Shown here: positions 10,208 through 36,293 of the stretch, in pieces
Position numbering within the stretch: the stretch's first letter is position 1
Layout: each line of letters starts with the position of its first letter
From: Paeniroseomonas aquatica
GTDB lineage: Bacteria > Pseudomonadota > Alphaproteobacteria > Acetobacterales > Acetobacteraceae
DNA length: 50,956 bases
Assembly: GCF_030409335.1 (NCBI RefSeq)
Contig: NZ_JAUFPN010000080.1
Coordinates: 1,122-52,077, forward strand
Direction: 5' to 3'
Notes under the pieces: model-generated
What the model was told of the DNA's origin: nothing
What the model saw: only the letters and a program-made list of their open reading frames with translations
The model's database searches: none
Made by a program: the position numbers and the translations under genes

Positions 10208-11218
10208 TCAGCGGACGGAGAGCATCCCGAGGCCACTCAGGACGGCCTGCTTCCGGTCGAGGTTCAACCGCTCCGTCTCATCCGCGAGGCGGCCGAGCTT
10301 TTCCCACAGGGTGGACCACTCGGCAAGCGAACGCCCGCCGATCCAGGGCGCCGGGTCGGTGCCGCGGGCGGCAGCGCGCAGCCCGGCGGCGAGCGCCCGG
10401 CGCAGCAGGTCGAGGAAGGTGGTCAGCGCCGCGGCGTCGCGCCGGGTGGTGACGCGGTCGGCGATGTCGTGGATGCGGCGGGGATCGAGCCGCGGCAGGC
10501 CGGCGAAGACCTCCTCCACCATGGTCTGCAGCGCCAGCCCCTCCCCCTCGGCCAGCAGCAGAGCGCGGCCGGGACAGCCATCGGCGATATGCGCCAGGCG
10601 GAGGCGATCGGGGCCGCCCATCTCGGGCATCCAGCGGGTCAGCAGCCCGGTCAGGGCGGGTTCGGACAGCGGCGCCAGGTCGAGCCGGCGGCAGCGGCTG
10701 CGGATGGTCGGCAGCAGCCGGTCGGGGGCGCTGGTGACCAGCAGCTGGACGGTGCGGGGCGGCGGTTCCTCCAGCGTCTTCAGCAGGATGTTCTGCACCA
10801 GCTCGCGCTCGGATTGCTCGACATCCTCGACCACCACGGCACGCCAGCCACCCTCGGCCGCGGTCAGCGCCATGAACCGCAGGGCGTCCCGGGCATCGTC
10901 CACGCGCAGCACCTCCTTCCTGCCGCCCTTGCCGACGGTCGGCGCCAGGGTGAAGAGGTCGGCATGGGCGGCGGCGGCGACCCGGCGGAAGGTGGCGTTC
11001 GCCTCCGGCAGGTACAGCGGGGTCTTGCCCTGCGGCGTCGGCGGCATGCCGGCCAGCAGCCAGCGGGCGAAGCGATAGGCCAGGGTCGCTTTGCCGACGC
11101 CGGTCGGGCCGGCGATCAGCCAGGCATGGTGCATCCGGCCGGAGAGCGCGGCTTCCTCCAGCGTCCGGGCGGCATCGTCATGGCCGACCAGCTCGGGATT
11201 GGCCCGGGGATCGGTCAC
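10208..11218 (-). CDS. holB: DNA polymerase III subunit delta-prime
   Basis: A 336-residue clamp-loader AAA+ subunit. Walker A is GPTGVGKATLAYRFA (about residue 37), VVVEDVEQSERE lies at Walker B, and LKTLEEPPPRTVQLLVTSAPDRLLPTIRSRCR is the sensor/SRC-type region that defines delta-prime. It works with gamma/tau and delta to load the beta clamp. Its start overlaps the tmk stop by ATGA, so its translation was coupled to tmk. That coupling now depends on the interrupted 3' part of tmk. Confidence 0.95.
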   Translation of the reverse strand: MTDPRANPELVGHDDAARTLEEAALSGRMHHAWLIAGPTGVGKATLAYRFARWLLAGMPPTPQGKTPLYLPEANATFRRVAAAAHADLFTLAPTVGKGGRKEVLRVDDARDALRFMALTAAEGGWRAVVVEDVEQSERELVQNILLKTLEEPPPRTVQLLVTSAPDRLLPTIRSRCRRLDLAPLSEPALTGLLTRWMPEMGGPDRLRLAHIADGCPGRALLLAEGEGLALQTMVEEVFAGLPRLDPRRIHDIADRVTTRRDAAALTTFLDLLRRALAAGLRAAARGTDPAPWIGGRSLAEWSTLWEKLGRLADETERLNLDRKQAVLSGLGMLSVR

Positions 11219-11798
11219 AGCCGGGCCCTGACCAGGTGCAGGATGGCGGCGGCGACGCCCTCCGGCCCGCCGGTCGCGTCGATCAGGGCGCAGCGCTGCG
11301 GCTCGGCGGCGGCAATCGCCCGGAAGCCGTCGCGGATCCGGGCGTGGAAGCTGGCCTCCATGGCCTCGTAGCGGTTGGTATCGCCCCGGGCGGCGGCACG
11401 GGCGAGGCCTTCGACCGGATCGATTTCCAGCACCAGGGTGAGGTCAGGCGCGAGGCCTTCGAGCGCCACGGCGGCGAGTGCATCGAAGGCGGCGCGCGGC
11501 ACGCCCTGGCCATAGCACTGATAGGCCAGCGTCGAGTCAGCGAAACGGTCTGAGATCACCCAGATGCCGGCCTCGAGCGCCGGGCGGATGGTGCAGGCGA
11601 GATGCTCCCGCCGCGCCGCGAAATGCAGCATGCATTCGGCGATATTGTCCCACGGGCCCTCGCCCAGCAGCAGCCGGCGCACCGCTTCCGCCCCCGGGGA
11701 GCCACCGGGTTCGCGGGTGCGGAGGACGGGAATGCCCGTGGCGGCCAGCGTCGCGGCGAGGCGGCGGGCCTGGGTGGACTTCCCCGCCCCCTCCCCGC
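11215..11798 (-). pseudogene. tmk: Host thymidylate kinase, 3' part (interrupted)
   Basis: Minus strand: from the P-loop EGAGKSTQARRLAATLA through the LID REPGGSPGAEAVRRLLLG, the DRFADSTLAYQ motif and ALIDATGG to the stop, about 192 residues. The first dozen residues of a normal Tmk (M..RFITLEGG) are missing here and lie at 36,258-36,293, on the other side of the inserted element. Joining the two parts gives about 204 residues, the normal Tmk length. Upstream of the junction the frame continues into element DNA (ATG at 11,913). That hybrid would replace beta-strand 1 and the first P-loop glycine (S-G-E-G-A-G-K-S), so kinase activity is unlikely. Translation through it could still feed holB, whose ATG overlaps this stop. 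Confidence 0.9.
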
Positions 11799-11799
11799 T

Positions 11800-11824
11800 T
11801 ATCGCCCCTCCTCTCGAGTGTACC
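11800..11824 (+). repeat. Left terminal inverted repeat of the tmk element
   Basis: TATCGCCCC (11,800-11,808), nine variable bases, then GTGTACC (11,818-11,824). It mirrors the right end (36,233-36,255), where the spacing is seven bases. The repeat begins at the point where tmk similarity stops. Confidence 0.65.
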
Positions 11825-12123
11825 ATATGAGAGAGTATTCCCGTCCGATTGGCATTAAACCGAAATAAGTAGGGTCTACCGACCCCCACTCTCACATCTG
11901 AATCTAGTACCATTTCTGTAGCTGCGCGTCTTGAGCAGTTAGGTTTTATCGTCTGGGTTGCCCGACAAACCCATCTTGCTAGCTCGCCGAAAACCTTACA
12001 GTTGATCGTTCCACCGCGCTATCTGCGCGGATTTCATGTTCCCTTTTTGTTCTGTATGGGCAAGTCTCATTGCCGCGCGACCTCGGGAGTCGTCGCTGTG
12101 TAGACGCATCGCAAGGAGCGACG
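11825..12123. other. Element left-end control region
   Basis: There is no gene here apart from the minus-strand frame reading into the tmk fragment. It contains a GGGTC-TACC-GACCC hairpin near 11,870 and a perfect stem CCGCGC (12,014-12,019)/GCGCGG (12,025-12,030). A good ribosome-binding site, AAGGAG, lies just before the recombinase ATG at 12,124. It probably holds the recombinase promoter and recombinase binding sites. An outward promoter for holB-metG, if present, would also be here, but I cannot point to a strong one. Confidence 0.4.
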
Positions 12124-13365
12124 ATGATCAGCGGCGTGAGCGTCCCAGCTGCAGCAATGACAGAGCTTCTCACAGCGGTGGTGGGCGGCGCGGCAACTGC
12201 TCGGATCACTGCGGGTGAGCGGGGTCGCTCATTAGAGATGGCAGATGGTGTCCGTTTCCTGTTCGACCGCAACGGTCATTATCTGAACGACGTCAACGGC
12301 TGGCAACTTCGCATGGGCCTCCGGACGTCCTCCCCGGCCACTCGGGCCACCCGCTCGAGCGCAATCAAGAGGGTGCTGGGTTGGTACGATGAGCGGGGTC
12401 TGCGATGGCAAGATTGCCTTGAGCTCGCTCACATGAACCGCCTGTGGCTTTCATTTCGATCGGCTGAGAGTCCGCTAGTCAGCAAGGCGACGTGGAATCA
12501 ATGGATGGACCATTGGTTTGCCTTCGTCCTCTACGCCAAACAGACAGGTCTTGTCGACGACATCGGATTTAATCGTTCAGACGTCATTGAACGCGGACGT
12601 TCTGCTCGTCCAGTCAGGGCATTATCGGCGGGAGAGTTCAAAACCTTTGTGCAGGCCGCAGACTCTTCCCGTATGCGAGCGGGGTGCGCTGCCTGTCTCG
12701 GCACCGGCATGCGGGTTTCTGAACTCGCTGCGCTACGCCTCAGCGACATTCCGGATCCGCAGAGCCCGTCAAATATTGGCCGTGCGTATTTACCTGCCAC
12801 CATTATGGGAAAGGGCCGAAAGGTCCGTACCATTTATTGGCCTTCGACTGCAATTAAGTGGATCCAGTGGTACGTCAATGGCGAAAGACGTCTGGCCGTA
12901 GAAACTCTACGGCAAAGGATCTCTAAGCAGGAAATCACAGCCTCACAAACTTTTCTGACCGTGGGCTCAGGGGGGAGCCTTATCGAACAGTCAACCTCTC
13001 CGCTGTGGTTGGCGGAAAATGGGGAGCCATTGTCCCAAAAACGATGGGGGAAGGATTTTGCCAAAGTCAGCGATCGTTGCGGGAAGAATGGACCTCAGTG
13101 CTCACCCCACAACCTTCGCCACAGCTATGCCATTGCTACCCTGTCCCTGCTCATCAACGCCATGCTGAAGAAAGAAATGGTTGATCGCCATTTGGGCCGG
13201 GAAGAAGGACGTGTTTATTTCATGGAGCCCATACGTGAGGTCAAGGAGCGACTTGGCCACGCATCCATCGATACAACGATGATCTATCTTGATCATATTG
13301 CCGAACATCGCGCACTTCTTTCCATGGCAGTTTCAGAGCTGCAAGCGACCTATTTCGATGCCTAA
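12124..13365 (+). CDS. Tyrosine recombinase A of the tmk element (catalytically complete)
   Basis: A 413-residue site-specific recombinase/integrase. All catalytic boxes are visible: Arg in GTGMRVSELAALRLSDI (about R197), Lys in MGKGRKVRTIYW (about 230), HxLR in SPHNLRHSYA (H329/R332), then His and the nucleophile Tyr in LGHASIDTTMIYLDH (H379/Y388). The N-terminal part carries the SAM-like core-binding domain. The start at 12,124 is favoured over an in-frame ATG 54 bases upstream because AAGGAG sits 5-6 bases before it. It is the first gene of a string of overlapping genes, and the second gene starts 8 bases before its stop. Probably the strand-exchange subunit of the element. Confidence 0.93.
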   Translation: MISGVSVPAAAMTELLTAVVGGAATARITAGERGRSLEMADGVRFLFDRNGHYLNDVNGWQLRMGLRTSSPATRATRSSAIKRVLGWYDERGLRWQDCLELAHMNRLWLSFRSAESPLVSKATWNQWMDHWFAFVLYAKQTGLVDDIGFNRSDVIERGRSARPVRALSAGEFKTFVQAADSSRMRAGCAACLGTGMRVSELAALRLSDIPDPQSPSNIGRAYLPATIMGKGRKVRTIYWPSTAIKWIQWYVNGERRLAVETLRQRISKQEITASQTFLTVGSGGSLIEQSTSPLWLAENGEPLSQKRWGKDFAKVSDRCGKNGPQCSPHNLRHSYAIATLSLLINAMLKKEMVDRHLGREEGRVYFMEPIREVKERLGHASIDTTMIYLDHIAEHRALLSMAVSELQATYFDA

Positions 13366-15445
13366 GCGCTCGTTGAAGGCAAATGCACAGCTTGCAACTG
13401 CTCCAGTCTCCATCACTGTCATCGACCTGGAAGCGGACCGGGAGCGGATACGGCGGACGCTAACTTTTGTGCATGTTCCGCCCGCGGGCAAAGGTGATTC
13501 TCGGGAAATCAGCCTGAAAGCTTGGATCGGATCGCCCTATCAGGACGTAGCCGGCGAGCTCCTTGTCGCACACCAAGAGGCGTGTATGCGGCTGACATCC
13601 GAAACCACTGCCTCGCAAATCTATCATCTAAAACGTTTTCTCGAATTCCTGATTGCACGGGATAAAGAGCGGGCTGGACAGTCTGCTTCAAATCTCAAAA
13701 GCTTTAACTTTCATGTCTTGCGTGACTTTGAGCACTGGTTAATGAGCACAACGGTGAAGTCTCGGCGGCTGGTCGAAAAACGCGCGGATCTGCTCAAAAA
13801 AATCCTTACAAAGAATCCGTTGTCCAAATTCATGGGGAAAAAAGGCAATCTGAATTTAGCGAAGATTTCCGGTCGTCTTGGTGCATCGCATTATTATATT
13901 GATATTCATCCTCCTCTGTTTGCAATCGTGGAGAAAGCGGCAAAAGAGCAAGGAATAGCAATCGCAAGGTCAGAAATTTCTCTCCGAATGTCCCTTCAAA
14001 ATAAAATATATTTGAAGAATGATAAAGATCGTCCGAAAGCGTCGCGGTACATCGCAGATATCGTGTACACGGTAAATAAGACTCTGGCTCGGATTGTTGC
14101 GAGCCGTCCTGACCTGCTGCCCAAAGATTTCGCACTCCCAACTCCTCTGACCGGATCAGAGCTCCAGCGAGTTAAGTCCAAGGCTCTGTCTCCCGTTGAG
14201 GCTGAGACGTTTGAGAAATCATGCCTCAGTGCGATGAGGAAGGTCAGACAGAGAAGGCAGGAATGTCTTTTGACCGTCGACCCGCCAGGGCAGAGTACCC
14301 AAGGCGAAACTGGCAATGACGCATTCAGGTTCGGAAGCAAATTTGACGCAGCCGTTCAACTCGACGTTCGGCATAAAGAATTCGTTGGCCCTTCAGCGGA
14401 TGATCTGATGCCGTTTCTTTTGAGGCTTACATTCAACGAACACGCTCCACTCAATATCAGCACGGCGCTGAGCTTGCATGTCGATTTAGCTAATGTGAGT
14501 GCGCATTGTCTCCGCCCAAGCCCAACACCTGGGCATTGCCGCGTCTATTTCAGTAAACCTCGAGCTGGAATTGATGAGGAATTTGTCGATGTGCCAGATC
14601 GGGGTGCTTTTGATGTGCCAGGGGTCATTAGAACCGTTATTGATTTAACAAAGAGGCTGCGGCCTTCAGCTTCGGAGCAGGATGCTCATACTCTCTGGCT
14701 TTACGCTCGCCAGAAAAATGGTGCCGCCTGCGCTTTGACCTCATCAATTGCATACGTGGCGTTGCGTGAGTTTCAAAATCGGCCCGAAAATTACACGCCG
14801 GATGGCAAACCTATACCGGATCTACATTTTCGGAGATTTCGTCCGACAATTCTGGCCAACGTGGCGATCTCGAATGGGGTAGATGAGGCTCAACGGCGGG
14901 CGTCGCATGCCGACTTCAGGCGAACTATCGACTATGCATCAAGTCCGGGTAATGAAATCAGGGTGCGGGATACCATCAAGGGGGCCCAAAGCAAGGCGAT
15001 AAGCTCGATCCGGTCAGGCTTTCAGAATCGACCAAAGCCCGAAGAAGTCGAGAAATTGGCGTCGGAGCTTGGGGTTACGCTGGGACATGCAGCAGAGGTT
15101 TTGCTCGGACAGAGAGATAAGCTTTTTAATAGCTGTCTTGATGACAAGAATGGCAAAGGACCGGAACGGAAGGGTGCGGCGTGCAGACGTTATGAATCCT
15201 GCCTGGTTTGCGTGAATGGCATTATTTTGGAGCGGCACTTACCACGGCTTTTGGATTTTTACTTCCAGTGGTTGCGCCTCGCTGACGTTTTAGATGAAGT
15301 AATTTGGCGTGAAGAGCATGAGCTAAACTGCAGACTCGTCGAGGTTCATTTGTCTAAATTCCCGCCTGACCTCGTCGACAGACTAACGAACGAGGCCCGA
15401 TCACGGTCACCGGTGATTGGATATCGGCCGGCTAAGCAGACATGA
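13358..15445 (+). CDS. Recombinase B: large, partly degenerate tyrosine-recombinase-like protein
   Basis: A protein of 695 residues from ATG 13,358, which overlaps the stop of A. The C-terminal half retains the tyrosine-recombinase layout: LHFRRFRPTILAN matches the HxxR box, and ASHADFRRTIDYA has His and Tyr at the same 9-residue spacing as in protein A. Where the first catalytic Arg should be, the segment HAPLNISTALSLH has Asn instead. A Cys-rich stretch follows near residue 610 (CRRYESCLVC), possibly a metal site. Size and place recall TnpB of Tn554-type transposons or the second protein of other multi-recombinase elements. Likely a partner subunit rather than an independent integrase. Family assignment is by motif only. 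Confidence 0.75.
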   Translation: MPKRSLKANAQLATAPVSITVIDLEADRERIRRTLTFVHVPPAGKGDSREISLKAWIGSPYQDVAGELLVAHQEACMRLTSETTASQIYHLKRFLEFLIARDKERAGQSASNLKSFNFHVLRDFEHWLMSTTVKSRRLVEKRADLLKKILTKNPLSKFMGKKGNLNLAKISGRLGASHYYIDIHPPLFAIVEKAAKEQGIAIARSEISLRMSLQNKIYLKNDKDRPKASRYIADIVYTVNKTLARIVASRPDLLPKDFALPTPLTGSELQRVKSKALSPVEAETFEKSCLSAMRKVRQRRQECLLTVDPPGQSTQGETGNDAFRFGSKFDAAVQLDVRHKEFVGPSADDLMPFLLRLTFNEHAPLNISTALSLHVDLANVSAHCLRPSPTPGHCRVYFSKPRAGIDEEFVDVPDRGAFDVPGVIRTVIDLTKRLRPSASEQDAHTLWLYARQKNGAACALTSSIAYVALREFQNRPENYTPDGKPIPDLHFRRFRPTILANVAISNGVDEAQRRASHADFRRTIDYASSPGNEIRVRDTIKGAQSKAISSIRSGFQNRPKPEEVEKLASELGVTLGHAAEVLLGQRDKLFNSCLDDKNGKGPERKGAACRRYESCLVCVNGIILERHLPRLLDFYFQWLRLADVLDEVIWREEHELNCRLVEVHLSKFPPDLVDRLTNEARSRSPVIGYRPAKQT

Positions 15446-17565
15446 AAAATCTACGCACTGACGGCCAGACCGCCGCAAAATCAGAAGCGAACCTCCGCCT
15501 CCTCGCGCCATCGACTGTGGTGACGCGCAAGGGAAGTCATGTTGCCGACCTGATCTGGGATTTCACTGGTGACGGGTCAGGCCTCTTCATTTTTGACTGG
15601 GCCTTCGAAGTTCGCGTCCGCGATATCGTCATCGGCAACCTGGGTGATAGGCGCTACAGTTCCCTCGTCTACCCGTTCCAGGAAGCCATTGCGGTCCGCT
15701 GGCTTTATAAGGAGCGGGAGGACGGGAAAAACTGGGCTCCCTCCAGAGCGGCAGACGCATGCCGTTGTGCCCGTGAATTTTGCCTGTGGGCGGCCGCACG
15801 TGGCATCAGCGCGGCATCGGAGGTCGACGAACCGAGCTTTGAGGCCTGGGTGAAGGAAGCCGCTAACCTTAAGGATGGCGCGGGCCTTCGCTCTGTTCGA
15901 GATGCCCGCCGCTTGGTCGATACGACACTTCTTCTCTGGCGGTTACGAAACCGTATCAGTTCGACGCTTGGTTTTCAACCACAGGCGGAGTTTGGAAAAG
16001 ATTGGATCACTGAAGGCCCAGAGACAGAATCTTTTGAATTGATTCCAAAGGCCGTTCTCGACCACGTCATCGGGTCCGCTCTCAAGTTCGTAGAAGTATA
16101 TGCCCATGATATCCGGGCTGCTCGTCTTTACGTGGACAAATTGGTTTCGGAATGGGAGGCAAAATACGACGCGGTAGCCCCGGTTTGGTCCAAAGGCTCT
16201 GAAGAATATGCAGAGTTCGATAGGTGGATTGGCGCACGATTTGGATCGAGAAACCTTACTGCTCGAAAAAAGATGCCGCAGCCAGCACCATGGAATAAAA
16301 CTGGCCTATTCAAGGAAGACCCTGACACTGGCAAGCCTTGGCTGGATCGCATAGAGAGCCGCCATAAGCTTCAAATGCTGGAGAATTCCCTTCGAACTGC
16401 CTGTTACATCGTAATCGCCTTTCTCACCGGCGGTCGTAATGGTGACATGAACGACCTGCTTTTCCAGTGCGCCGAAACCATCCCATCGGTCGATGCGCGT
16501 TTTTCGCCACGTCATGTCATTCATGGGACCCTCGCCAAGCATCGTGGCCGCATCCCTCAACAGGTTACCTGGGACGTGCCCAAGGAGGCTATTAACGCGG
16601 CAGAAATTCTTGTCGAGATGCTGCGCCCCTGGAGAAAGAAAACCGGGACAACCCGCTTGTTTGCAACACAAACCGGAAAGCTGTTGCAGAATAGCTTTAT
16701 GAACACTGATTTAAAGGTGTTTTTGGAGCGGATTGGGGCGCCCTATGTGAATGGCAAGCCATTCCCGCTATCGACACACATGTTCCGAGTGGCCCTTGCT
16801 CAGTGGTTGGCGCACGAGCCGCACGGAGAGGTAGCAGGCGCAATTCATCTCAAGCAGTTAAGCACTGCGGCATTTCGAGGATATTTGCGGAACGACACGC
16901 AATTCCTGTCCATGTTCGCCCATTTCGAACAAGCCGCTCAAGCTGACCACCTGGAAACGGTCATGACCGAACCCCTTCTCCGCGGTCGAAAGGGGCTTGA
17001 GATCATGAGAGCCAGGACGGCTGAAGAACAGGCCTCTCTCGAGGCTGAAATACGATCGATCAACTACGCGCAGGCGGGCTCTGAAGCCCCGAATGCCCGT
17101 ACCCTGCAGCGTCTCCGAAAAAACGGGATGCCGGTCTACAAAACGGCCCTGACGATGTGCGTGTTCAAGGGTGATGCGGCTGAGTGCCTGAAAGGTGTCG
17201 CTGCCGGGCAGAGAACGCGACCGCGTACCCATAAATGCGACCCGCATGCATGTGCTAACTCGGCGATCACGCGACTGCAGATTCCGGCCTACTTAGAGGA
17301 CTTTGAAGAATACAGCCAACTCAATGCAGATTCGGGCCATTCATCATCGCAAAAAGTCATTTATCGGGAGGAGATGGCAATGCTTGCTCGCCTCATCTTG
17401 CCCTTCCTGCCGGTGTTGAACGCTGAGGGCGGGGTGCTTGATCAGGAGCTGGTCGGCGCCGATGCAAGGGAGGCTGCCACTGTCTCTCGGGCAAAGCGCC
17501 GATCTGAGGTTGCAGACCTCATTACGCGGATTGAGCGTGCTGAAATCCGGAGCTACGCGGGATGA
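15442..17565 (+). CDS. Recombinase C: large tyrosine-recombinase-like protein
   Basis: A 707-residue protein whose ATG overlaps the stop of B (ATGA). Recombinase features lie at about residues 325-490: AFLTGGRNGDMNDLL (catalytic Arg), LSTHMFRVALAQWLAH (HxxR box) and IHLKQLSTAAFRGYL (candidate nucleophile Tyr). A Cys/His cluster (HKCDPHACANSAI) near residue 600 echoes the Cys motif of B. The long N-terminal domain is unrecognised. With A and B it makes a three-recombinase set, as in recombinase-in-trio and Tn554-like elements, but here B and C are about twice the usual size. Probably binds or cleaves the element ends together with A. Confidence 0.78.
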   Translation: MKNLRTDGQTAAKSEANLRLLAPSTVVTRKGSHVADLIWDFTGDGSGLFIFDWAFEVRVRDIVIGNLGDRRYSSLVYPFQEAIAVRWLYKEREDGKNWAPSRAADACRCAREFCLWAAARGISAASEVDEPSFEAWVKEAANLKDGAGLRSVRDARRLVDTTLLLWRLRNRISSTLGFQPQAEFGKDWITEGPETESFELIPKAVLDHVIGSALKFVEVYAHDIRAARLYVDKLVSEWEAKYDAVAPVWSKGSEEYAEFDRWIGARFGSRNLTARKKMPQPAPWNKTGLFKEDPDTGKPWLDRIESRHKLQMLENSLRTACYIVIAFLTGGRNGDMNDLLFQCAETIPSVDARFSPRHVIHGTLAKHRGRIPQQVTWDVPKEAINAAEILVEMLRPWRKKTGTTRLFATQTGKLLQNSFMNTDLKVFLERIGAPYVNGKPFPLSTHMFRVALAQWLAHEPHGEVAGAIHLKQLSTAAFRGYLRNDTQFLSMFAHFEQAAQADHLETVMTEPLLRGRKGLEIMRARTAEEQASLEAEIRSINYAQAGSEAPNARTLQRLRKNGMPVYKTALTMCVFKGDAAECLKGVAAGQRTRPRTHKCDPHACANSAITRLQIPAYLEDFEEYSQLNADSGHSSSQKVIYREEMAMLARLILPFLPVLNAEGGVLDQELVGADAREAATVSRAKRRSEVADLITRIERAEIRSYAG

Positions 17566-18275
17566 GCCGTGACGGCAGGGGGCCGTCTGATGACGCCAGG
17601 GCAAAGGCAACCGAGACCAAGCGGCAAAACGCGGCCAACAGGCGAGCTGCATTGGCCGAGGTACTGGCGCTGATCGAGGTGCAGCTGGGTGCTGGCGCAC
17701 TAAAGCCGGAGGAAATCTCCCACGACGTCCTCCGGGAGCGTGCCGGCCTGACTAATGCGACCTATTGGCGCTATCTGAATGCTGATCCCGATATCGCTCT
17801 CAAGGCTGCAGCGCTTGCCTGGACGACGCGTCCTGACCGAAGCGGCGACAAGCTCGTCGTAGTCAAACCGCTGGGTGGTACGTCAGATGACGGAGGGCAA
17901 GAGGCCCGCGACGAAGTCGCCCGGCTTACGGTGATCAATCTCAATCTTATGCAACAGGTGGCTGCCTGTAAGGCCGTCATATCGCTGCTCGAAAGCGACC
18001 TCCGAGCGAAATCCAAGGAAGCGGCAGGCAAGGACTTTGACCTTGCCAGTGAAAGGCGGATCTCCACCCAACTGGCTGAAAAGCTGGCAGCCATGGTCGA
18101 GCGGTGCCACGTGGCGGGGATCGACGTCGATCCGGATCTTGCCTCGCTGGTCAAGGCGCCCGCCCGGGACGGCGGGCGTTTGCAGACGCCGGGGGAGCCG
18201 GCATTGGCGCATACCCGGCGGAAGGCTCCGACGTTGAGTGTCGTTCGATCCGACGATGACACTGGCCAAAGCTAG
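17562..18275 (+). CDS. Small HTH/coiled-coil protein D of the recombinase operon (TnpC-like in position)
   Basis: A 237-residue protein overlapping recombinase C by ATGA. The N-terminus is basic (ARAKATETKRQNAANRRAALAEV). Residues about 45-75 (ISHDVLRERAGLTNATYWRY) look like a helix-turn-helix, and about 105-175 is a predicted coiled coil (VARLTVINLNLMQQVAACKAVISLLESDLRAK). The position after the recombinases matches TnpC in Tn554, an accessory protein affecting orientation and frequency of transposition. No enzymatic motif is seen. Function inferred from context: DNA-binding accessory factor. Confidence 0.65.
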   Translation: MSRDGRGPSDDARAKATETKRQNAANRRAALAEVLALIEVQLGAGALKPEEISHDVLRERAGLTNATYWRYLNADPDIALKAAALAWTTRPDRSGDKLVVVKPLGGTSDDGGQEARDEVARLTVINLNLMQQVAACKAVISLLESDLRAKSKEAAGKDFDLASERRISTQLAEKLAAMVERCHVAGIDVDPDLASLVKAPARDGGRLQTPGEPALAHTRRKAPTLSVVRSDDDTGQS

Positions 18276-18311
18276 GACTTGGGTGCTGCATCAGCTCGGG
18301 GAGCCAAGGGA

Positions 18312-21138: not shown

Positions 21139-21197
21139 GAACCAGAGTTTGTTTGAAGGTCGCTCAGATCTCGCAAGCAACCGGCAGGATGTGGCAG

Positions 21198-22299: not shown

Positions 22300-22300
22300 T

Positions 22301-25409: not shown

Positions 25410-25431
25410 ATCCATAAGAGGAAACCCTACC

Positions 25432-26355: not shown

Positions 26356-26365
26356 GGTTCGCGCC

Positions 26366-27019: not shown

Positions 27020-27036
27020 CTCGGGGTTTGGGTGCC

Positions 27037-28191: not shown

Positions 28192-29146
28192 GGCCTTTGT
28201 AGTAAAGCTCATATCAAAGCGGTTCCTTGAGCAAGTCAGCGTGTTTTTATCAGGCATCATAAAAAAGGGAGGATAATATGCCAAAGACCACGGAAAGCAC
28301 GTCTTTTACGAAGGATATCCAGGGTCGATATCTTTGCAACGATATTACTGAGGTGAATGAATGGAAAGTCGCAGGTGGCCGACCCTTTGATATCTTGGTC
28401 ATCGGCGGAGGTACGTTCGGCTCCGCGATCGCCGAACATCTCTGGTTTCGGCAGAAGCAAACCGGCGGCGGTCTGCGGACCCTGGTCGTCGACGCCGGGA
28501 TGTTCACCATCCCAGAGCACACCCAAAACACCGGTATCCAAGGCTTCAATGATCCAAGTCAGCCCTTTCTTCTGAACGAGGCGGCGCCGCAGCCGGAGCC
28601 GCCGCGCAACGAAGTGTGGGGCGTCCCGTGGAAGTCCACGATCCCCTTCAAAGGCCTGGCTTACACGCTCGGGGGCCGGTCGCTTTATTGGGGTGGTTGG
28701 TCGCCACGACTGCTGCCGCAGGAAACGGCGAGCTGGCCGCCTGCGACGGTTGCCGACCTCGAACCCCGCTACTTCGATGAGAGCACGCGCCAGATCGGTG
28801 TCGATGAGACAAACGACTTCATTTTCGGGGAGCTGCATAGTGCCTTGCGCCGGCGCCTTTTCGATCAGATTGGTACGATAGGTGACGCAACAGCGCTCGC
28901 CGCCCTTCCTCCATCACCACTGTTGAAGCCAGGTACGACAGCGGCCGAGCTACTCGGGCCACTTTCTATCGGCGGCCTGTCCACGGCTCAGCTGGAGAAC
29001 ATGCTCAAGCTGGAAGCGCCACTCGGGGTCCAGGCGCGGCCGCCGCACGCCGGCTTCTTTCCATTGAACAAGTTCAGCACGGTGCCTCTGTTGATGAAGG
29101 CCTCGCGCACAGAGGTGGCTCGATTTCCAGCTACAGCGTTTCGGTC

Positions 29147-29167
29147 CCGATAAGTGGTTTCTCTGCC
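29147..29167 (+). repeat. IS3 inverted repeat, orfB-side end
   Basis: Begins CCGATAAGTGG and ends CTGCC. It matches the other end (30,425-30,445, opposite orientation) at 18 of 21 positions. Confidence 0.8.
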
Positions 29168-29255
29168 GGTTGAGAGGCACGTCTTGCTGGCGCCGTGGCC
29201 TCGCGTAGGGAGGGCGTAGCCCGACCGGAGCGGGGCCACGGCGCCGGTGGCGTTG

Positions 29256-30083
29256 TCAGGCTGCCATCGCTGGCGGCAGATGGTCGAGATAGGCCCGCTC
29301 CGGCGTCCTTGCGCCCAGGCTCGAGTGTGGCCGCCGTCCATTGTAAAAGGCCAGATACCGCCCGAGTGAGGTGCGCGCCTCGCTCACGCTGTCATAGGCC
29401 CGCAGGTAGACCTCTTCGTATTTCACCGAGCGCCACAACCGCTCGACGAAGACGTTGTCCCGCCAAGCGCCGCGGCCATCCATGCTGATGCGAATCGCCT
29501 GGTCCTGCAGCATCCCGGTGAAGGCCGCGCTGGTGAATTGGCTGCCCTGGTCGGTGTTGAAAATCTCCGGCTTGCCGTGGCGCGCCAAGGCATCCTGCAC
29601 CGCGTCGATGCAGAACTCGGCCTCCAGCGTGATCGACAGCCGCCAGGCCAGCACCCGTCGGCTGAACCAATCCAGCACCGCGGCCAGGTAGACGAAGCCG
29701 CGTGCCATTGGGATATATGTGATGTCCATCGCCCAGACTTGGTTCGGGCGGTCAATCACCAAGCCGCGTAGCAGATATGGGTAGATCTTGTGCCCTGGCG
29801 CAGGTTTGGACGTATTCGGCCGGCGATACAGCGCCTCGATCCCCATCCGTCGCATAAGGGTCGCTACCGCAACCCGGCCGATCACCACCCCCTCGGCGCG
29901 CAGCAGGTCGCGCAGCATCCGGCTGCCCGCGAAGGGGTGTTCCAGATGCAGCATATCGATCCGGTGCATGATCGCCAGCCGAGCCGGCGGCACCGGTCGA
30001 GGCAGGGCGTAGACGCTGCTCCGGCTTACCTGCAGCAGCGCGGCCTGCCGAACCACAGGCAACTCGTGCCAACGGTTGATCAT
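29256..30083 (-). CDS. IS3-family transposase OrfB (DDE integrase domain)
   Basis: A 275-residue protein from ATG 30,083, overlapping the orfA stop. The N-terminal HTH_21 region has [16 protein letters not shown] and [17 protein letters not shown]. The rve catalytic core is visible: [10 protein letters not shown] (first D), [12 protein letters not shown] (second D) and [16 protein letters not shown] (E). [14 protein letters not shown] is the family's C-terminal signature. The same frame is open far upstream to 30,746. The functional transposase is expected as an OrfAB fusion by -1 frameshifting. A complete DDE triad suggests activity. Confidence 0.92.
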
Positions 30084-30388
30084 CGCTTGGCGCTCAGCAG
30101 GCCGGCCTTGCTGAGCGCGCCGGATAAAAAATCCTTCTCCAGCGTCAACTCTCCGATCTTCGCATGCAGCAGCTTCAGGTCGACCGGCGGCACTGCCTCG
30201 GTGGCAGGGCCAGACCCGAAGACGCCCGCCGCGCCCTCCTGCAGCTGCGCCTTCCAGGCCGTGATTTGGCCAGGATGCACATCGAACAGCTTGGCCAACT
30301 CGGCCAGCGTCTTCTCGCCCTTGATCGCCGCCAGCGCCACCTTCGCCTTGAAAGTAGGGCCATGCGTCCGCCGTGTTCGCTTCGTCAT
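30080..30388 (-). CDS. IS3-family transposase OrfA
   Basis: A 102-residue protein. An HTH_Tnp_1 domain lies at the start (RTHGPTFKAKVALAAIKGEKTLAELAKLFDVHPGQITAWK), and a leucine-zipper-like helix at the end (LLHAKIGELTLEKDFLSGAL). It binds the IS ends and regulates transposition. It overlaps orfB by ATGA, with a slippery heptamer 50 bases before its stop. Confidence 0.9.
   Translation of the reverse strand: MTKRTRRTHGPTFKAKVALAAIKGEKTLAELAKLFDVHPGQITAWKAQLQEGAAGVFGSGPATEAVPPVDLKLLHAKIGELTLEKDFLSGALSKAGLLSAKR
30125..30131 (-). other. Programmed -1 frameshift site of the IS3 element
   Basis: On the minus strand orfA reads GAT TTT TTA. The heptamer T-TTT-TTA is a standard -1 slippery sequence, and shifting there joins the orfA frame to the orfB frame (GGA TTT TTT ATC) without an intervening stop. 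Confidence 0.75.
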
Positions 30389-30424
30389 TCTCGCTCCTGA
30401 TCCGCGGCAGCTTCGCCGCTGTCA

Positions 30425-30445
30425 GGCAGGAAATCCACTTATCGG
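30425..30445 (-). repeat. IS3 inverted repeat, orfA-side end
   Basis: The complement begins CCGATAAGTGG and ends CTGCC, pairing with 29,147-29,167. Confidence 0.8.
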
Positions 30446-32155
30446 ACTGTCCGAATTTCCCGAGCCACCTCTCACCGCCGTCAACGTGCCTGGCACCACC
30501 GACGCCACCAAGGAGTTCATGGTGCTGCCCGGGACGCATGTGATCTCGTTGCGGACCGCACCGACGGCCAGCGGCACATGGCGCATTACCGGCGCCGAGA
30601 CGAGCGCAGGCTTCATCGACTTGGCGCCAGGAGGCACTGCCGTCATCGCCTTGGGGACTATTGAAAGTGCCCGCCTTGCTCAACTCTCGTTCGACAATAC
30701 AGGCATTCCGACTTTTCCACTGATGGGCGAAAACCTGATCGGGCATCTTCGCTCAAACATGGTGATCCGGGTGCCTCGGGCTGCTGTGCCTGGGTTGTCG
30801 GCATTGACCACCGAGCTACAGACCTCGGTCCTGTTCTTGAAGTGCCTGGCGCAGCAGGGCGGCAATCAGCTCGGCCGTTTCCACCTGCAGATTTCTGCCA
30901 GTGGTGGCGGCAACACAGTTGGAGCAGAGGACGAGCTGTTCAGGAAAATCCCTGACGTCGAGTTCTTCGACCAACTGCGAACCTCGACCGACACGCACGT
31001 GTCCATTGCCATCCGTGGTATTGGCGAAATGGAGCCGTCCGACATGAGTACACCAGCCACGCTTGCCACGCACCCCAGCCGAGTGAAGCTCTATGCGGGC
31101 CTGGATGAGTACAATGTCCGCCGCGCGAACGTAACGCTGTCGCCAACCATCCGCGATAACGCATTATGGAACGTCATGGATGCCACCATACAGCAGGTGG
31201 CCACCCTCTTCGCCAATGGCCAGCCTGTAGACCTTGTCCAGGCGCTCTCGCGGGATGGGCTTGGCACGACGCATCATGAGGCTGGCACATTGTGGATGGG
31301 CACGGATCCAGCGCGCAGCGTGACTGATGCAAATGGCCGTTTTCACCACACCGAAAATCTCTACGCGGCCGGTCCTTGCCTCTTTCCCAGCATCGGTTCG
31401 CCCAATCCGATGCTCAGCGGCATTGCGCTGGCGCGTCGCACCGGGGACCGCATTATCACACCGGTCGCCTTCGCGTCCGCCAACCCGTTTGTCACCTTGT
31501 TTGATGGGGTGAACCGAGCGAACTGGCGGATGTCCACCATCCGCAATCAGCCAGGCCGCGACAACTCGGGCCAGTTCCTCATCCGGCGAGGAGCGCTGGA
31601 AGCGCAGCCGGGCACCGATCTCGGCCTCTTGTGGCTCAACCAGCCAACACCACCGCGCTACGAGTTGCAGCTGGAGTGGATGATGACGGCGCCCGATGAC
31701 AACTCGGGCGTCTTCGTAGGCTTTCCCGACCCGGAGGGCCAAGGATACGACAACACTGCCTTCGTCGGTGTCGATTTCGGATTCGAAATCCAGATCGATG
31801 AGCTGGCACGCCCCGACGGCGCGGGGATCCATCGCACCGGCGCTGTCTATTCTTTCAAAGGGCCGACCGACGGCCCGGTCGTTGTCCACCCGCCCGGCGA
31901 GTGGAACCGCTACAGGATAACCGTCGATGGCCCGAACCTCGTGGTCGCCCTCAACAATCGGGTCGTGAACAACTTCCAGTTTGCGGGCGGACCTCAGTCG
32001 CCACGCGGCCGACCATCTACGCCAGGCAACCCACGGTTCATCGGATTGCAGACTCATACCGGTCGGGTGTTGTTCCGCCACATCGAATGGCGACCGATGT
32101 AGGGTTGTGGGGCGGGCAGTCGGCGACATGACTGCCGCCGGCTGCCTGCCGATCC

Positions 32156-32638
32156 TTAATGATCGTGCCCGTGCGGCACGAGCTCGTCGGCTAGGACGTC
32201 CAAGCCAAGCGCCAGCGCCAGCGTGAACGCGATTGCCACCCCACCCAGCCGTAGCAGCTGCGGCCGCGGCAGGCTTAAGCGCTCCCGCGCCATGTAGGCG
32301 ACCAGCGTCACCGGCACCCCAAGCGGCAGCAACACCGCCGCGTAGTGCGGAAAGTCGAGGAAGTGCTGGATGGAGCCGCTGAGCATGCCGAGGCCGAGCG
32401 ATAGCACCACACTCCAGGCGATTTAGCGACCGAGAGCCCCGCTGCCGCCCTCGACCGCCGAAGCATGCCGACGCCGGGCGTCCAGGGCCGAAGCGACAAT
32501 GAAGATCACCACGCCGATGGCACCAATCAGCAGGTACCGGCCTGGATCAAGCGGCAGGTGGACGACCGACCCACCGGTGAGCGCCACCCCTAAATAGAGC
32601 GCGACGTAGAGGGCGTAAGGAGCAAGGACCTGGTTCAT
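32156..32638 (-). pseudogene. Small membrane protein next to rcnR, split by an in-frame stop
   Basis: From ATG 32,638 the frame reads MNQVLAPYALYVALYLGVAL, a second membrane span (YLLIGAIGVVIFIVASALDARRR) and GGSGALGR, then TAA. After the stop the same frame continues at once with IAWSVVLSLGLGMLSGSIQHF and two more hydrophobic spans, ending VPHGHDH. One base change (CAA to TAA) would explain the split, so this looks like one four-span protein of about 160 residues with a nonsense mutation. Alternatively these are two small genes. The His-rich tail and divergent position to rcnR-rcnA suggest a link to nickel/cobalt handling. Family not recognised. Confidence 0.6.
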
Positions 32639-32671
32639 GGAGCCTCTGTAATGGTGCGCGTCCTTGCGTAT

Positions 32672-32689
32672 CCTATCCGGGGGGATAGG
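32672..32689. promoter_or_regulatory. RcnR/FrmR-type operator between the divergent metal genes
   Basis: CCTATCC (32,672-32,678) and GGATAGG (32,683-32,689) flank GGGG. The whole reads as a G-tract framed by inverted ATA/TAT, the form recognised by RcnR/CsoR-family repressors. It lies 9 bases before the rcnR ATG and 34 upstream of the divergent membrane-protein gene. Confidence 0.75.
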
Positions 32690-32697
32690 TTAAGGGC

Positions 32698-32976
32698 ATG
32701 AATGACGCTGCCCTCCATCTCAGCCACCCCGAGATCGCCAAGCGCCTCAAGCGGGCCGAGGGGCACCTGCGCAGCATCGTCGGCATGATCGAGGCCGGGC
32801 GCCCCTGCCTCGAGCTGGCTCAGCAGCTTCATGCCGTCGAGAAGGCGGTGGCGAACGCCAAGCGGGCGCTAATCCACGATCACATTGACCATTGCCTTGA
32901 ACATGCGGCCGATGGGCCGGCCCCCGAGGCGCGTCGCGCCATCGAGGAATTCAAGGAAATCACCAAGTACCTGTGA
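32698..32976 (+). CDS. rcnR: RcnR/FrmR-family metal-sensing repressor
   Basis: A 92-residue all-helical regulator. LSHPEIAKRLKRAEGHLRSIVGMIEAGRPCLELAQQLHAVEKAVANAK is the family signature, with the conserved Cys in PCLEL. His residues in the N-terminus (ALHLSHP) and in HDHIDHCLEH are placed as in Ni/Co-binding RcnR rather than in copper CsoR. Tetramers bind the G-tract operator just upstream and release it when nickel or cobalt binds. It is followed 10 bases later by rcnA. Confidence 0.9.
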   Translation: MNDAALHLSHPEIAKRLKRAEGHLRSIVGMIEAGRPCLELAQQLHAVEKAVANAKRALIHDHIDHCLEHAADGPAPEARRAIEEFKEITKYL

Positions 32977-32986
32977 GCTTTAACCG

Positions 32987-34102
32987 ATGACCCCTCTTTC
33001 CGAACTCCTCCAGCAGGGCACGGCCCACGCCTGGCTGTTCATTCCCTCAGCCATCTTGCTTGGTGCGCTGCACGGCCTCGAGCCCGGCCACTCCAAGACG
33101 ATGATGGCAGCCTTCATCATCGCCGTACGCGGCACCGTGACGCAGGCGGTGTTGCTCGGCCTGGCCGCGACTATCTCCCATACCGCCGTCGTCTGGGCCG
33201 TCGCCCTAGTCGGTCTGCATATTGGTGGCCAGTTTGATGCCGAGACTACCGAACCCTATTTTCAGGTCGCGTCCGCCGTCCTCATCATCGGCGTGGCGCT
33301 TTGGATGGTTTGGCGCACCTGGCGCGACGGACGGCAAGCGAGCCTGGCCGAGCATGACCACCACCACGAAGAAGAGGTGCGGCGCATCGACACCGGCCAC
33401 GGCATCCTGGCTCTGGAGGTGTTCGAGGAGGACGTGCCGCCGCGTTGGCGAGTTCGCTTCGAGAGCGGCCGCGGCTGGAAGGCCGAAGAGGTCACCATCA
33501 CCACTGAGCGGCCAGATGGCACCCGGCAAGCCTTCGCCTTTGCAGACCGCGGCACCTACCTGGAATCTCTCGAAGAGATCCCAGAACCGCACGCGTTCAC
33601 CGCTCACCTCTGTCTGGCGCAAGGTAGTGCCACCCGCAACTACGACGTAGCGTTCGCCGAACATGATCACGGCCACCACCATGAAGGCCTGGACCTGTCG
33701 GGAGGTGAGTACGAAGACGCTCATCAGCGTGCGCATGCCAACGACATTCGGCAGCGCTTTGGCAATCGTCACGTCACGACCGGCCAGATCATCATGTTCG
33801 GTCTGACCGGTGGTTTGATCCCATGCCCGGCCGCCATCACCGTGCTGCTGCTGTGCCTTCAGCTCAAGGAGTTCACCCTGGGCGTCGCCTTGGTGCTGTG
33901 CTTCAGCATTGGCCTTGCGCTGACGATGGTAACGGCGGGGGTTGCTGCTGCTCTAAGCGTCCGACATGTGTCGCAACGCTGGTCAAGCTTTGGCGCCTTC
34001 GCGCAGCGCGCACCGTACTTCTCAAGCGCCGTGATCATCTGCGTCGGACTGTACGTTGGATACCAAGGGCTGCATGGCTTGGCGGTTTTAGGAATGTTCT
34101 GA
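32987..34102 (+). CDS. rcnA: Nickel/cobalt efflux transporter RcnA
   Basis: A 371-residue inner-membrane exporter. The first spans include LLGALHGLEPGHSKTMMAAFIIA, the NicO-family motif, and TISHTAVVWAVAL. A long cytoplasmic loop with two His clusters (HDHHHEEE, HDHGHHHEG) surrounds a soluble insert of about 90 residues, and C-terminal spans contain GLTGGLIPCPAAITVLLLCL. Loops rich in His are the usual metal-binding feature. The soluble insert makes this longer than E. coli RcnA, though similar inserts occur in proteobacterial homologues. Co-transcribed with rcnR. Confidence 0.93.
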   Translation: MTPLSELLQQGTAHAWLFIPSAILLGALHGLEPGHSKTMMAAFIIAVRGTVTQAVLLGLAATISHTAVVWAVALVGLHIGGQFDAETTEPYFQVASAVLIIGVALWMVWRTWRDGRQASLAEHDHHHEEEVRRIDTGHGILALEVFEEDVPPRWRVRFESGRGWKAEEVTITTERPDGTRQAFAFADRGTYLESLEEIPEPHAFTAHLCLAQGSATRNYDVAFAEHDHGHHHEGLDLSGGEYEDAHQRAHANDIRQRFGNRHVTTGQIIMFGLTGGLIPCPAAITVLLLCLQLKEFTLGVALVLCFSIGLALTMVTAGVAAALSVRHVSQRWSSFGAFAQRAPYFSSAVIICVGLYVGYQGLHGLAVLGMF

Positions 34103-34135: not shown

Positions 34136-34936
34136 CTAAAACTCATAAGGAACACGCGATGCGATTATCACTGAAAACCTCGACTGTGTACGAGTTAAAA
34201 TCGCGTCTATCTCTTTCATGCGCTCCATCTCACCCGTTCGACGCGGTGCCGTATATATTTCTTGAAACATGTGGTCTACGCCATCACTCAGATCGAAATA
34301 TCTTCTATATGGAAATTTGGCATACCTGAATGGTTTGCCGTTTAGTATCGTGCTAAAAATCTCCGTTGGTTTTTCAAATATTAGTCGTACTTCGCGCTCC
34401 TCGAAAAAAGTAGGGTGCTTTAAGAATGGCGCGAATGGAGTGAAATTCCCCGATATTGTGGTCGTCAAGAAATCTCTGAATTTTTGCTTGTTATTCAAGT
34501 CACCGGTGTACGTCATGATACTTTTTGCCACCGGGTCAATCAAAAAAGCCTGCGCCCTCACATCATATATAATTTCGTCTACATAGATTTTTTCATCTAG
34601 TCTCATTGCAGTTTTAATAACTTCCATTGGTAAACTAAAACATAACCCGTTCTCTTTAGCGTAGCCAATCCACTGACTTTTAAGTTCTCTCGTTTTTGAA
34701 AATGAAACAGAAAAAACATCGACAACCCGCAGACAATCGATTTCCGATTTAACTGCATTGACTAAAGATACAGGAGCCTTAAAGAACTCCAGACGCCGGA
34801 TGAGCAAGTCTTCCGCATATATCAGCTCAGTATAATCATTCATCGCTCGGAGATCACCCGCCCACAGACAGCCACTCTCAACTATGGCCCCAAAGGCTAA
34901 GGCTTTTGTGTAGTGAAACAAAAGATCCTGTGACAT
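34136..34936 (-). CDS. DUF2971-domain protein, start uncertain
   Basis: From ATG 34,936 this is 266 residues starting MSQDLLFHYTKALAFGAIVESGCLWAGDLRAMNDYTE, which is the DUF2971 opening (HYT..., LW....NDxxE). It continues with FSVSFSKTRELKSQWIGYAKENGLCFSL and FFEEREVRLIFEKP. The frame stays open upstream to 35,455, overlapping the 3' end of tmk. That extra 173 residues does not resemble the family, and the upstream part is higher in GC. The domain is uncharacterised but recurs in defence islands and toxin-like contexts. GC is much lower than elsewhere, indicating separate acquisition. It lies directly downstream of the element's tmk. Confidence 0.7.
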   Translation of the reverse strand: MSQDLLFHYTKALAFGAIVESGCLWAGDLRAMNDYTELIYAEDLLIRRLEFFKAPVSLVNAVKSEIDCLRVVDVFSVSFSKTRELKSQWIGYAKENGLCFSLPMEVIKTAMRLDEKIYVDEIIYDVRAQAFLIDPVAKSIMTYTGDLNNKQKFRDFLTTTISGNFTPFAPFLKHPTFFEEREVRLIFEKPTEIFSTILNGKPFRYAKFPYRRYFDLSDGVDHMFQEIYTAPRRTGEMERMKEIDAILTRTQSRFSVIIASRVPYEF

Positions 34937-35397
34937 GCGCGCTGGCGCAATTCCATTCGGTATGTAGGCAAGTGTCGCTGGCAAAGGTAGATACCCGTCG
35001 TGAATTCCGCCTGCGCCCGCATTGATATAAGCTCGGCTGGTTGAGTATGGTAACTCTCGCTCCGCTGGCATACCTTGAATCCTCTCCAATTTCCCCATCC
35101 TCGGCCCAAGCAATAAAATTAAGAAACTTTTGTGGACTTGGGCTGGAGTTATTTGATGCGCTCGGACCGGTTCGCTATCTTCATTGCGGTGGCTGTAGCG
35201 ATAAGGAATCCGGGGCGGACAGGACGCAAGGAAATCTCGTCTTCGGGCCTGCTCGACATCGAGACCAGCGATGCGCCAGGAAACTTTGTTTGCGGCGGCT
35301 ACATTGCTTCCAAACGCGTCAGTTCGAAGCCGAACGAATATTCGAGAATCCCCCACCCAGCCAATCGCCTGGAATGCCAGGGCGGGGGGCGAGCAGC

Positions 35398-36129
35398 TTA
35401 CCTGCTCTTGGCGCACGCCAACGCTGAAGAAAGGATTTGATTCAAATCGTTCCATATTTCCAGAACGTCCCGGTGCCCATCAATCACCGCGTACCGCTCA
35501 GGATTGGCTGAAGCTTGGGCTAGGAAACTCTCACGCACACGCTGGTGAAATCCAAGTTCAAGCGCCTCAAATCTTCCCTCGTTGACGCCGCTCCCGCTCA
35601 ATCGTGCATGGCTACGCTTGAGGGCAACTTCCGGATCTACGTCTAGCACCAGCGTTAAGTCGGGCTGCAGGTCGCCAGTAGTAAGCTTATGAATCTCGCG
35701 GATGCTGTTGACATCCAAACCTCGCCCCGCTCCTTGGTAAGCGATCGTTGAGCCAACAAAGCGGTCACAGAGTACAACACGACCAGCCTCAAGCGCCGGG
35801 CGGATCACAGCTGCGACGTGTTGCGCTCGAGCAGCTGCCATTACGAGAAGCTCGGCGGTAGGGTCCCAGTTTAAGGTGCCCGACGACACCACCAGACCAC
35901 GAATAGCATTGCCCTCCGGCGTTCCACCCGGCTCCCGTGTCAAAATGAGGTCCGGGTATTCAACCTCCAGCACCTTCTTAAGGTGGGCCAGAGCACTGGT
36001 CTTTCCACTGCCGTCGACGCCTTCGACGACGGCAAAGAACCCTGGGAATACCCGATGAGAGTGCATCTTAGACACATTGCCGTGATAGTTTGCCGGATAT
36101 TCGCCCGTTATCTGCAGATCTGAGACCAT
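35398..36129 (-). CDS. tmk: Element-borne complete thymidylate kinase (replacement for the interrupted host tmk)
   Basis: A 243-residue dTMP kinase. The P-loop is VVEGVDGSGKTSALAHL, followed by LTREPGGTPEGNAIRGLV (DRE/LID region), VLCDRFVGSTIAYQGAGRGLD and DLTLVLDVDPEVALKR. All catalytic motifs are present. It differs clearly from the host fragment (EGAGKSTQARR; DRFADSTLAYQCYG), so it is not a recent duplicate. The ATG at 36,129 follows GAGGAG by 8 bases; ATG 36,066 is an alternative nearer the P-loop. It lies about 130 bases inside the right end, on the same strand as the host operon, and would restore dTTP synthesis after insertion. Codon usage is less GC-biased than that of the backbone. 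Confidence 0.94.
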   Translation of the reverse strand: MVSDLQITGEYPANYHGNVSKMHSHRVFPGFFAVVEGVDGSGKTSALAHLKKVLEVEYPDLILTREPGGTPEGNAIRGLVVSSGTLNWDPTAELLVMAAARAQHVAAVIRPALEAGRVVLCDRFVGSTIAYQGAGRGLDVNSIREIHKLTTGDLQPDLTLVLDVDPEVALKRSHARLSGSGVNEGRFEALELGFHQRVRESFLAQASANPERYAVIDGHRDVLEIWNDLNQILSSALACAKSR

Positions 36130-36232
36130 GGTGCTGTCTCCTCTCAGATCTTATTGGGCAGCAGTTGATTTGCGACTCTCAAGACTGCACCACCGGGCAA
36201 ACCCCTTGTCTCCGCAAGCCACCCACACACAC

Positions 36233-36255
36233 GGTACACACCCCAGGGGGTGATA
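36233..36255 (-). repeat. Right terminal inverted repeat of the tmk element
   Basis: Read inward (minus strand): TATCACCCC (complement of 36,247-36,255), seven bases, GTGTACC (complement of 36,233-36,239). Matches the left end. Host tmk sequence starts immediately outside, at about 36,257. Confidence 0.65.
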
Positions 36256-36257
36256 CC

Positions 36258-36293
36258 GCCGCCTTCCAGGGTGATGAAGCGGCCGCGCCGCAT
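36258..36293 (-). pseudogene. tmk: Host thymidylate kinase, 5' fragment
   Basis: The minus strand from ATG 36,293 reads MRRGRFITLEGG, the first beta-strand and start of the P-loop of Tmk, then runs into element sequence (GGTATCACC...). The ATG overlaps the stop of the upstream carboxypeptidase gene (ATGA). This shows that tmk was originally the second gene of the operon, and that the element entered exactly between codons for the P-loop Gly-Gly and Glu. Confidence 0.9.

Follow-up and report, generated by a model that had tools for sequence, protein, structure and literature searches.

We found that the only host-type thymidylate kinase gene (tmk) of Paeniroseomonas aquatica is cut within its P-loop codons by a 24,458-bp element, which occupies positions 11,799–36,256 of a 50,956-bp stretch of contig NZ_JAUFPN010000080.1 (hereafter the window) and brings a complete tmk of its own. 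The account that we prefer, with a probability of about 0.8, is that of a site-specific integrative element with multiple tyrosine recombinases (GInt-, SE- or Tn554-like) that targets the Walker A codons of tmk and whose carried tmk replaces the one it breaks. The original prediction, made from the letters of the window, was that an element splits tmk and carries an intact copy, and this was confirmed by a six-frame Pfam search of the whole P. aquatica genome (hereafter G000; 6.5 Mb in 313 contigs, 98.65% complete, with the window on contig 293), in which the split gene and the carried gene were the only two tmk matches and no other host-type tmk was found.

A tmk gene split at its P-loop codons

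On the minus strand of the window dacA, tmk, holB and metG are consecutive. The 5′ fragment of tmk (36,263–36,293, minus strand) opens with an ATG that overlaps the TGA of dacA and reads ATG CGG ... GAA G, that is MRRGRFITLE plus a single base G. It is followed by the core GCGGCG (36,257–36,262, minus strand) and then by the element, whose right tip, at 36,256, bears the terminal repeat GTATCACCCC (36,247–36,256, minus strand); the same ten bases occur in the second element described below. The host gene resumes 24.5 kb away as GCGGGG-AGGGGGCGGGGAAGTCC (GEGAGKS), where GCGGGG is the left core (11,793–11,798, minus strand), and its 3′ fragment (11,215–11,792, minus strand) ends on holB, whose start it overlaps. 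At the left tip, position 11,799, lies the repeat TTATCGCCCC (11,799–11,808, plus strand), which is identical to the right repeat at 8/10 positions. The 6-bp cores on the two sides of the element differ from each other, so that there is no target duplication, and the G+C content of the element in 1-kb steps is 44–66% versus 67–74% in most steps of the near flanks. For the elements known as SEs the rule has been reported that the core of the target is found on the left and that of the donor on the right, with no empty site left (PMC10214605). By the SE rule GCGGGG would be the host's own target core and GCGGCG would originate in a previous host.

Recurrence of the insertion in two further genera

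Among six relatives searched for tmk, five have one copy and Roseicella sp. DB1501 (G245) has two. The G245 genome contains an element of 23,976 bp at the same bond of tmk, with both junctions on one 175-kb contig, and its proteins are 89% (IntA), 83% (IntB), 68% (Tfp-like) and 70% (carried Tmk) identical to those of the window. The left junctions of G000 and G245 are the same, GGGGCGATAA-GCGGGG-AGGGGGC, and the right junctions read GAAG-GCGGCG-GTATCACCCC in the window and GAAG-GCGGAG-GTATCACCCC in G245. The fragmentation of G000 into 313 contigs might suggest an assembly error at the junctions, but as both recur to the base in a separate assembly, on a single contig, we give this explanation practically no weight: the arrangement is no artefact of assembly, nor is it confined to one genome. 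Nor do the relatives whose P-loop was read share the split without the element. Six of seven other members of the window's genus have one tmk (the seventh, 75% complete, has none), and the P-loop sequence is intact in all the tmk genes read from relatives, namely 5/5 from the same genus, 3/3 from the genus of G245 and 2/2 from that of G169, a third genus introduced below, in which two further tmk loci came without sequence.

Querying 397 genomes of the family with the carried Tmk gave matches in 367, at least eight of which have two. In one of the latter, G169, a tmk adjoining holB and metG is cut at the P-loop, and an IntA gene, which contains a stop, reads away from the remnant; the left junction is GGTAAGATAA-GCGGCG-AGGGGGT. 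A second G169 contig has an RlpA-like gene with DPBB and SPOR domains, after which stands a 5′ remnant of tmk (by reading, a TTG start and GIFITFE). TCGTTT-ATATCTCACC comes next, and beyond it lie an intact tmk with 55% identity to the carried one, a remnant of Tfp and the last 51 residues of IntA, before the contig ends in a DDE transposase. In G193 and G423, which are related to G169, an intact tmk comes directly after the RlpA-like gene. We take the two G169 contigs to carry opposite ends of a single old insertion, which would have lost its recombinases and cargo: the recombinases are broken or missing, with no IntB match in the G169 genome, and cargo was not found. That the carried tmk is nevertheless intact is the best sign of host dependence on it. 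As to association and INDEPENDENCE, G169 was found via tmk and not via recombinases, yet an IntA of the same family (47% identity over the piece) adjoins its split tmk.

A profile built from the three IntA proteins of G000, G245 and G169 matched nine of the same 397 family genomes, strongly in these three (E ≤ 5.5e-155, all profile members) and weakly in six (60–71 bits over about 120 residues), so that no fourth carrier was seen among the 397. IntB was found in 4/299 genomes sampled from the order, in 10/397 from the family (at high identity only in G000 and G245) and in 1/385 from the class, this being G000 itself. An IntB alignment search of genome contigs returned one locus, from Roseicella; a single-protein query returned none, and its peptides proved not to be conserved. 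No IntB was found in viral contigs, and the 163 matching plasmid records were all below 60% identity, none spanning 80% of the query. Six distant IntA/IntB loci were noted in other genomes of the family. Five further genomes (G307, G353, G056, G425 and G443) also have two tmk matches, none of them with an IntA profile match. The original prediction had proposed to look elsewhere for a split tmk with the recombinase operon on one side and a second tmk on the other. The genomes searched here yielded one complete case (G245) and one decayed case (G169), and the idea of the original prediction that the element targets the P-loop site is supported by insertion at the same bond in three genera.

At the target, the intact tmk genes compared mostly read GA(A/G)GGCGGNGA(A/G)GG. 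The left core equals this target in 4/5 genes compared with G000 (same genus) and in 3/3 compared with G245, and is one base off in 2/2 compared with G169; the right cores differ among all three elements. Next to the 6-bp core, each of the three elements has 10-bp imperfect inverted repeats at its tips matching at 8/10 positions, a level reached by 8 of 4,900 window pairs near the tips in the window. The G169 repeats differ from those of G000 at both ends yet match each other equally well. At the position of the target the carried tmk genes of G000 and G245 read GAAGGCGTCGACGG and GAAGGTGTCGATGG, respectively, having lost the core. Without the target bases these two carried genes should not themselves be a target, and loss of the core might shield the rescue gene from the element in G000 and G245, though not in G169.

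In a tree of 41 Tmk sequences (47 loci tried, six of which yielded no sequence) the G245 remnant pairs with the intact gene of G249 (100/98), that of G169 groups with G193 and G423 (100/99), and the G000 remnant falls in a fork without resolution with the clades of its own genus and that of G245. The three carried copies, together with nine single tmk genes of other genera, form a 100/100 clade apart from the host copies, in which those of G000 and G245 are sisters (100/99) and that of G169 has a long branch. Because the right cores differ and the host copies fall apart in this way, the sequences point to separate insertions, although the tree leaves G000 in the fork just mentioned. The identical left junctions of G000 and G245, and the fork that keeps the G000 host copy with both genera, could also reflect a single old insertion inherited by descent and lost elsewhere. 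We judge this very improbable given the pairing of the G245 and G169 remnants with intact genes of their own relatives, the three different right cores, and synonymous divergences between G000 and G245 that are higher for the recombinases and the carried tmk (IntA 0.89, IntB 1.04, Tfp saturated, carried tmk 1.63) than for three host genes (0.49–0.61). The helicase of the element gave 0.71 and three cargo genes 0.40–0.58 (the DUF6815 row of the selection analysis, misaligned at 28% identity, was disregarded). As the recombinases and the carried tmk are more diverged than the cargo, there are hints, tentative owing to saturation, that the two ends of the element are an old pair and that the middle has been exchanged.

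The carried kinase and the remnant of the host gene

The carried gene (tmkE; 35,398–36,129, minus strand) has the orientation of the broken gene and encodes the P-loop EGVDGSGKT. An intact tmk on the same strand had been predicted 130 bases inside the right end; its presence and orientation stand, and the distance from tip to start is corrected to 127 bp. The protein scores 153.8 bits against TIGR00041 (cut-off for dTMP kinase 83.25) and 140.5 against PF02223 (cut-off 27), matches solved thymidylate kinases and is 35% identical to the host tmk fragment, and what we take to be the P-loop, REPGG and DRF motifs of Tmk are visible in it. There was no match in G000 to PF21448, the domain of the T4-like deoxynucleoside monophosphate kinase (dNMPK), and every record matched by the carried Tmk in phage and plasmid collections was below 60% identity. 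Between G000 and G245 the ratio of nonsynonymous to synonymous substitution (dN/dS) of the carried gene is 0.145 over the whole gene and 0.108 from the P-loop onward; the gene is under purifying selection. It sits at the same place in both elements, 127 bp from the tip, and the orientation of the element sets it directly behind dacA (the RlpA-like gene in G169), in the former place of tmk. Replacement of the host kinase by the carried one, as originally proposed, is well supported but indirectly, by this selection, by the constant place of the gene and by its survival in the decayed G169 insertion.

Several genera of the family (loci L031–L044) have a sole tmk 50–63% identical to the carried one, mostly beside dacA where this was read; such genes are a possible source of the rescue gene or a possible end product. 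For the single tmk of the group g62 the second idea is not supported, as the gene stands between dacA and holB in four g62 genomes and no tmk remnant was seen in the gaps read on the holB side, which contain an FKBP gene (Pfam) in G283 and FKBP-like frames in two more genomes.

The remnant of the host gene continues into the element as a fused open frame (11,215–11,826, minus strand), whose ATG, at 11,826, belongs to the element tip and which begins with MVHSRGGAIS before entering the remnant. In G000, G245 and G169 alike, a frame leading into the remnant begins with an ATG equally distant from the left tip. This could mean that the split tmk still works, the left tip giving it a new start and N-terminus (MVHSRGGAIS for MRRGRFITLEG) and so a hybrid Tmk, with the carried tmk as mere cargo. 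As this explanation would have it, the remnants show a dN/dS that is mildly raised at most: 0.17–0.20 for G000 versus 0.14–0.15 in the genus (0.37 versus 0.27 in a wider comparison), a value like that of its relatives for G245, and 0.29–0.36 versus 0.20 for G169, where the tree branch of the remnant is 0.46 long versus 0.08 and 0.11. We nevertheless regard a working hybrid as very improbable. The first glycine of the P-loop and the preceding strand are missing from the remnant in 3/3 cases, the carried tmk keeps its place in the element and survives in G169, and the open frame could instead maintain translational coupling of holB. The halves of the split tmk in Pseudomonas putida KT2440 do not provide the function (PMC10653934).

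A box like TATGAGAC lies about 30 nt from the left tip (window 11,819–11,830) and contains the in-frame ATG; it occurs in the same region of loci L015 and L060, similar bases are found near the right tips, and it is possibly a second recombinase site. The ATG of the fused frame may keep the translation of holB coupled, or may merely be part of this box.

Recombinase operon, cargo and known systems

An operon of five genes (12,124–18,719) occupies the left end of the element, with helicase and cargo next to it; all are on the plus strand. Gene 1 (12,124–13,365) encodes an IntA-like tyrosine recombinase (PF00589), gene 2 (13,358–15,445) a Tfp-like protein and gene 3 (15,442–17,565) a large IntB-like tyrosine recombinase. 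These three are colinear with genes 1–3 of four-gene operons on Klebsiella/Serratia and Sinorhizobium plasmids (L106 2667–8029, Klebsiella; L107 3743–9502, Sinorhizobium; L108 3664–9029, Serratia), with hhalign values of 99.8/98.5% for gene 1, 98.2/82.9% for gene 2 and 99.6/99.2% for gene 3; the plasmid records do not name GInts. The roles of catalytic residues in genes 2 and 3 were assigned via recombinase motifs, by which the first catalytic arginine is presumably absent from gene 2 and kept in gene 3. Structure prediction gave a mean pLDDT of 35.8 for the Tfp-like and 37.5 for the IntB-like protein. The operon continues with a 237-residue protein (17,562–18,275) with no Pfam family match at 0.01 and a small protein (18,312–18,719) with weak matches to DUF6262 (28.2, cut-off 29) and the VPA1267 family (37.2, cut-off 90).

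A RecD2-like helicase follows (18,716–20,689; TIGR01448 337.9 bits, under the cut-off of 500). The cargo (20,806–34,102) comprises ChrB-C/rhodanese, a chromate transporter, DUF1259, DUF6815, a gene split by an rve-type insertion sequence (IS), a metal-sensing repressor and a NicO-type transporter. By reading, the split gene (28,278–32,102) is GMC-oxidoreductase-like, with the IS at 29,256–30,746 (minus strand), and a single 849-residue frame stands at its place in G245. An open reading frame with a DUF2971 domain (34,136–35,455, minus strand) overlaps the end of tmkE if its first ATG is used and is unlike the genes at the same place in G245. These, adjoining the carried tmk of that element (L016 8477–10394), are a DUF5131 gene and a partner, with matches to PDC-M30, a candidate defence pair.

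Under the integrative-element reading, the recombinases would integrate a circular form at the P-loop codons of tmk, the host's own core staying on the left and the donor's core arriving on the right. The host transcript that once held tmk would now read into the carried tmk, and this gene, to judge from its sequence, would supply dTMP kinase and so make the insertion survivable. Loss of the element would be lethal unless the carried tmk stayed or tmk were exactly rejoined. The element would in this way bring rescue, immunity and addiction, and addiction-like maintenance, as had been proposed, is plausible. If movement is as reported for SEs, with no empty site left (PMC10214605), precise excision may be rare or absent.

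Several results weigh against this reading. The main one against a plain pseudogene is that the remnants are at most mildly relaxed, which speaks for recent insertion or for some constraint on the frame. The carried tmk of G169 retains the target-like bases GAGGGCGGTGAGGGTGC, and the join of the two G169 contigs is itself an inference. Operon proteins 4 and 5 had no hhalign match to gene 4 of the plasmid operons. Finally, no promoter-like site was found at either end of the element, and near the left end the outgoing strand has a terminator-like hairpin.

The original prediction knew of no description of this exact arrangement, a statement overtaken by the genetic proof of the same principle in KT2440. 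There tmk is interrupted by a 65-kb island whose last gene encodes a T4-like dNMPK, and this enzyme was shown to be the essential dTMP kinase (Wirth et al. 2023, PMC10653934). Tmk-splitting islands are reported from several Pseudomonas, Acinetobacter, Psychrobacter and Halomonas; the island kinase adjoins two tyrosine recombinases, a TetR-type gene and one unknown gene, and dNMPKs also stand alone in place of tmk (PMC10653934). The present element resembles these islands in splitting an essential tmk whose operon ends in holB, in having the kinase at one end, in its tyrosine recombinases and in its variable cargo, replacement being deduced here (PMC10653934). In KT2440 the kinase is a T4-like dNMPK, tmk is cut into 294 + 339 bp by 65 kb, the hosts are Gammaproteobacteria and function is proven (PMC10653934), whereas here a Tmk-family protein is carried, the cut falls after codon 10, the element measures 24 kb and the hosts are Acetobacteraceae-like. 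A search of 100 genomes of the phylum for PF21448 gave one match, among tailed-phage genes. The two systems are apparently convergent. New relative to KT2440 are the true Tmk, the P-loop bond, another class of bacteria, three genera and a fossil stage; the open-licence literature searched held no earlier account of the present variant.

GInts have four genes, the third of which (GinC) lacks the first catalytic arginine, and insert mostly at the ends or starts of genes (ssb, ABC transporter); for one of them transcription outward from the operon end has been demonstrated (PMC5385486). The likeness lies in a recombinase operon at one end, cargo and a short other end, the GInts having 6–7-nt staggered cuts (PMC5385486), and in three recombinase-like genes plus small gene(s) at one end. 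Unlike in GInts, it is gene 2 and not the third gene that is without the first arginine, by motif, and there are five genes, not four. As to a homologue of GinD, the proteins compared were operon proteins 4 and 5 with gene 4 of the plasmid operons, which gave no match. SEs have the order intA-tfp-intB, imperfect inverted repeats of 13–19 bp, a 6-bp core, strand-biased circularization and one Srap, and have been reported only from Gammaproteobacteria (PMC10214605). Our element shares with them the order intA, catalytically incomplete tfp and intB, as assigned by residue pattern, and imperfect inverted repeats with a 6-bp core, the repeats at 10 bp being shorter than the 13–19 bp of SEs (PMC10214605). 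It differs in that two small proteins, with no detected homology to Srap, stand in place of the single Srap, the VPA1267/DUF6262 matches being weak and below cut-off. Tn552-II, which is related to Tn554, carries a target-gene-like gene, tgl, homologous to the gene that it interrupts, and its authors suggested rescue; its target is not an essential metabolic gene, it is a three-gene system and its core is 7 bp (PMC12486829). Synthetic Cleave-and-Rescue and home-and-rescue drives likewise disrupt an essential gene while supplying an altered copy of it (PMC7951863, PMC7968924). They are engineered, nuclease-based and used in animals, so that this is likeness and not kinship (PMC7951863, PMC7968924).

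A bolder reading, which we hold tentatively and at somewhat less than even odds, is that of a natural home-and-rescue element, in which P-loop-specific recombinases are accompanied by a replacement gene from the same family, the P-loop DNA of this gene having escaped them (G000, G245). The operon and the rescue gene would be the conserved ends and the cargo between them would be exchanged, and decay would make the state irreversible, leaving the host with a foreign essential enzyme (G169). If true, this together with KT2440 would amount to convergent capture of tmk by unrelated kinases.

The findings suggest that tmk hijacking extends beyond Pseudomonas to another class, with another kinase and another bond, the same bond being used in three genera. 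They outline a route by which an essential metabolic gene may be replaced by a foreign one and a natural counterpart of engineered break-and-rescue designs, and they warn that in genome annotation a "resident" tmk may be a dead copy. With two complete elements and a fossil that retains an intact kinase, the dependence of a host on a gene of a mobile element becomes directly testable.

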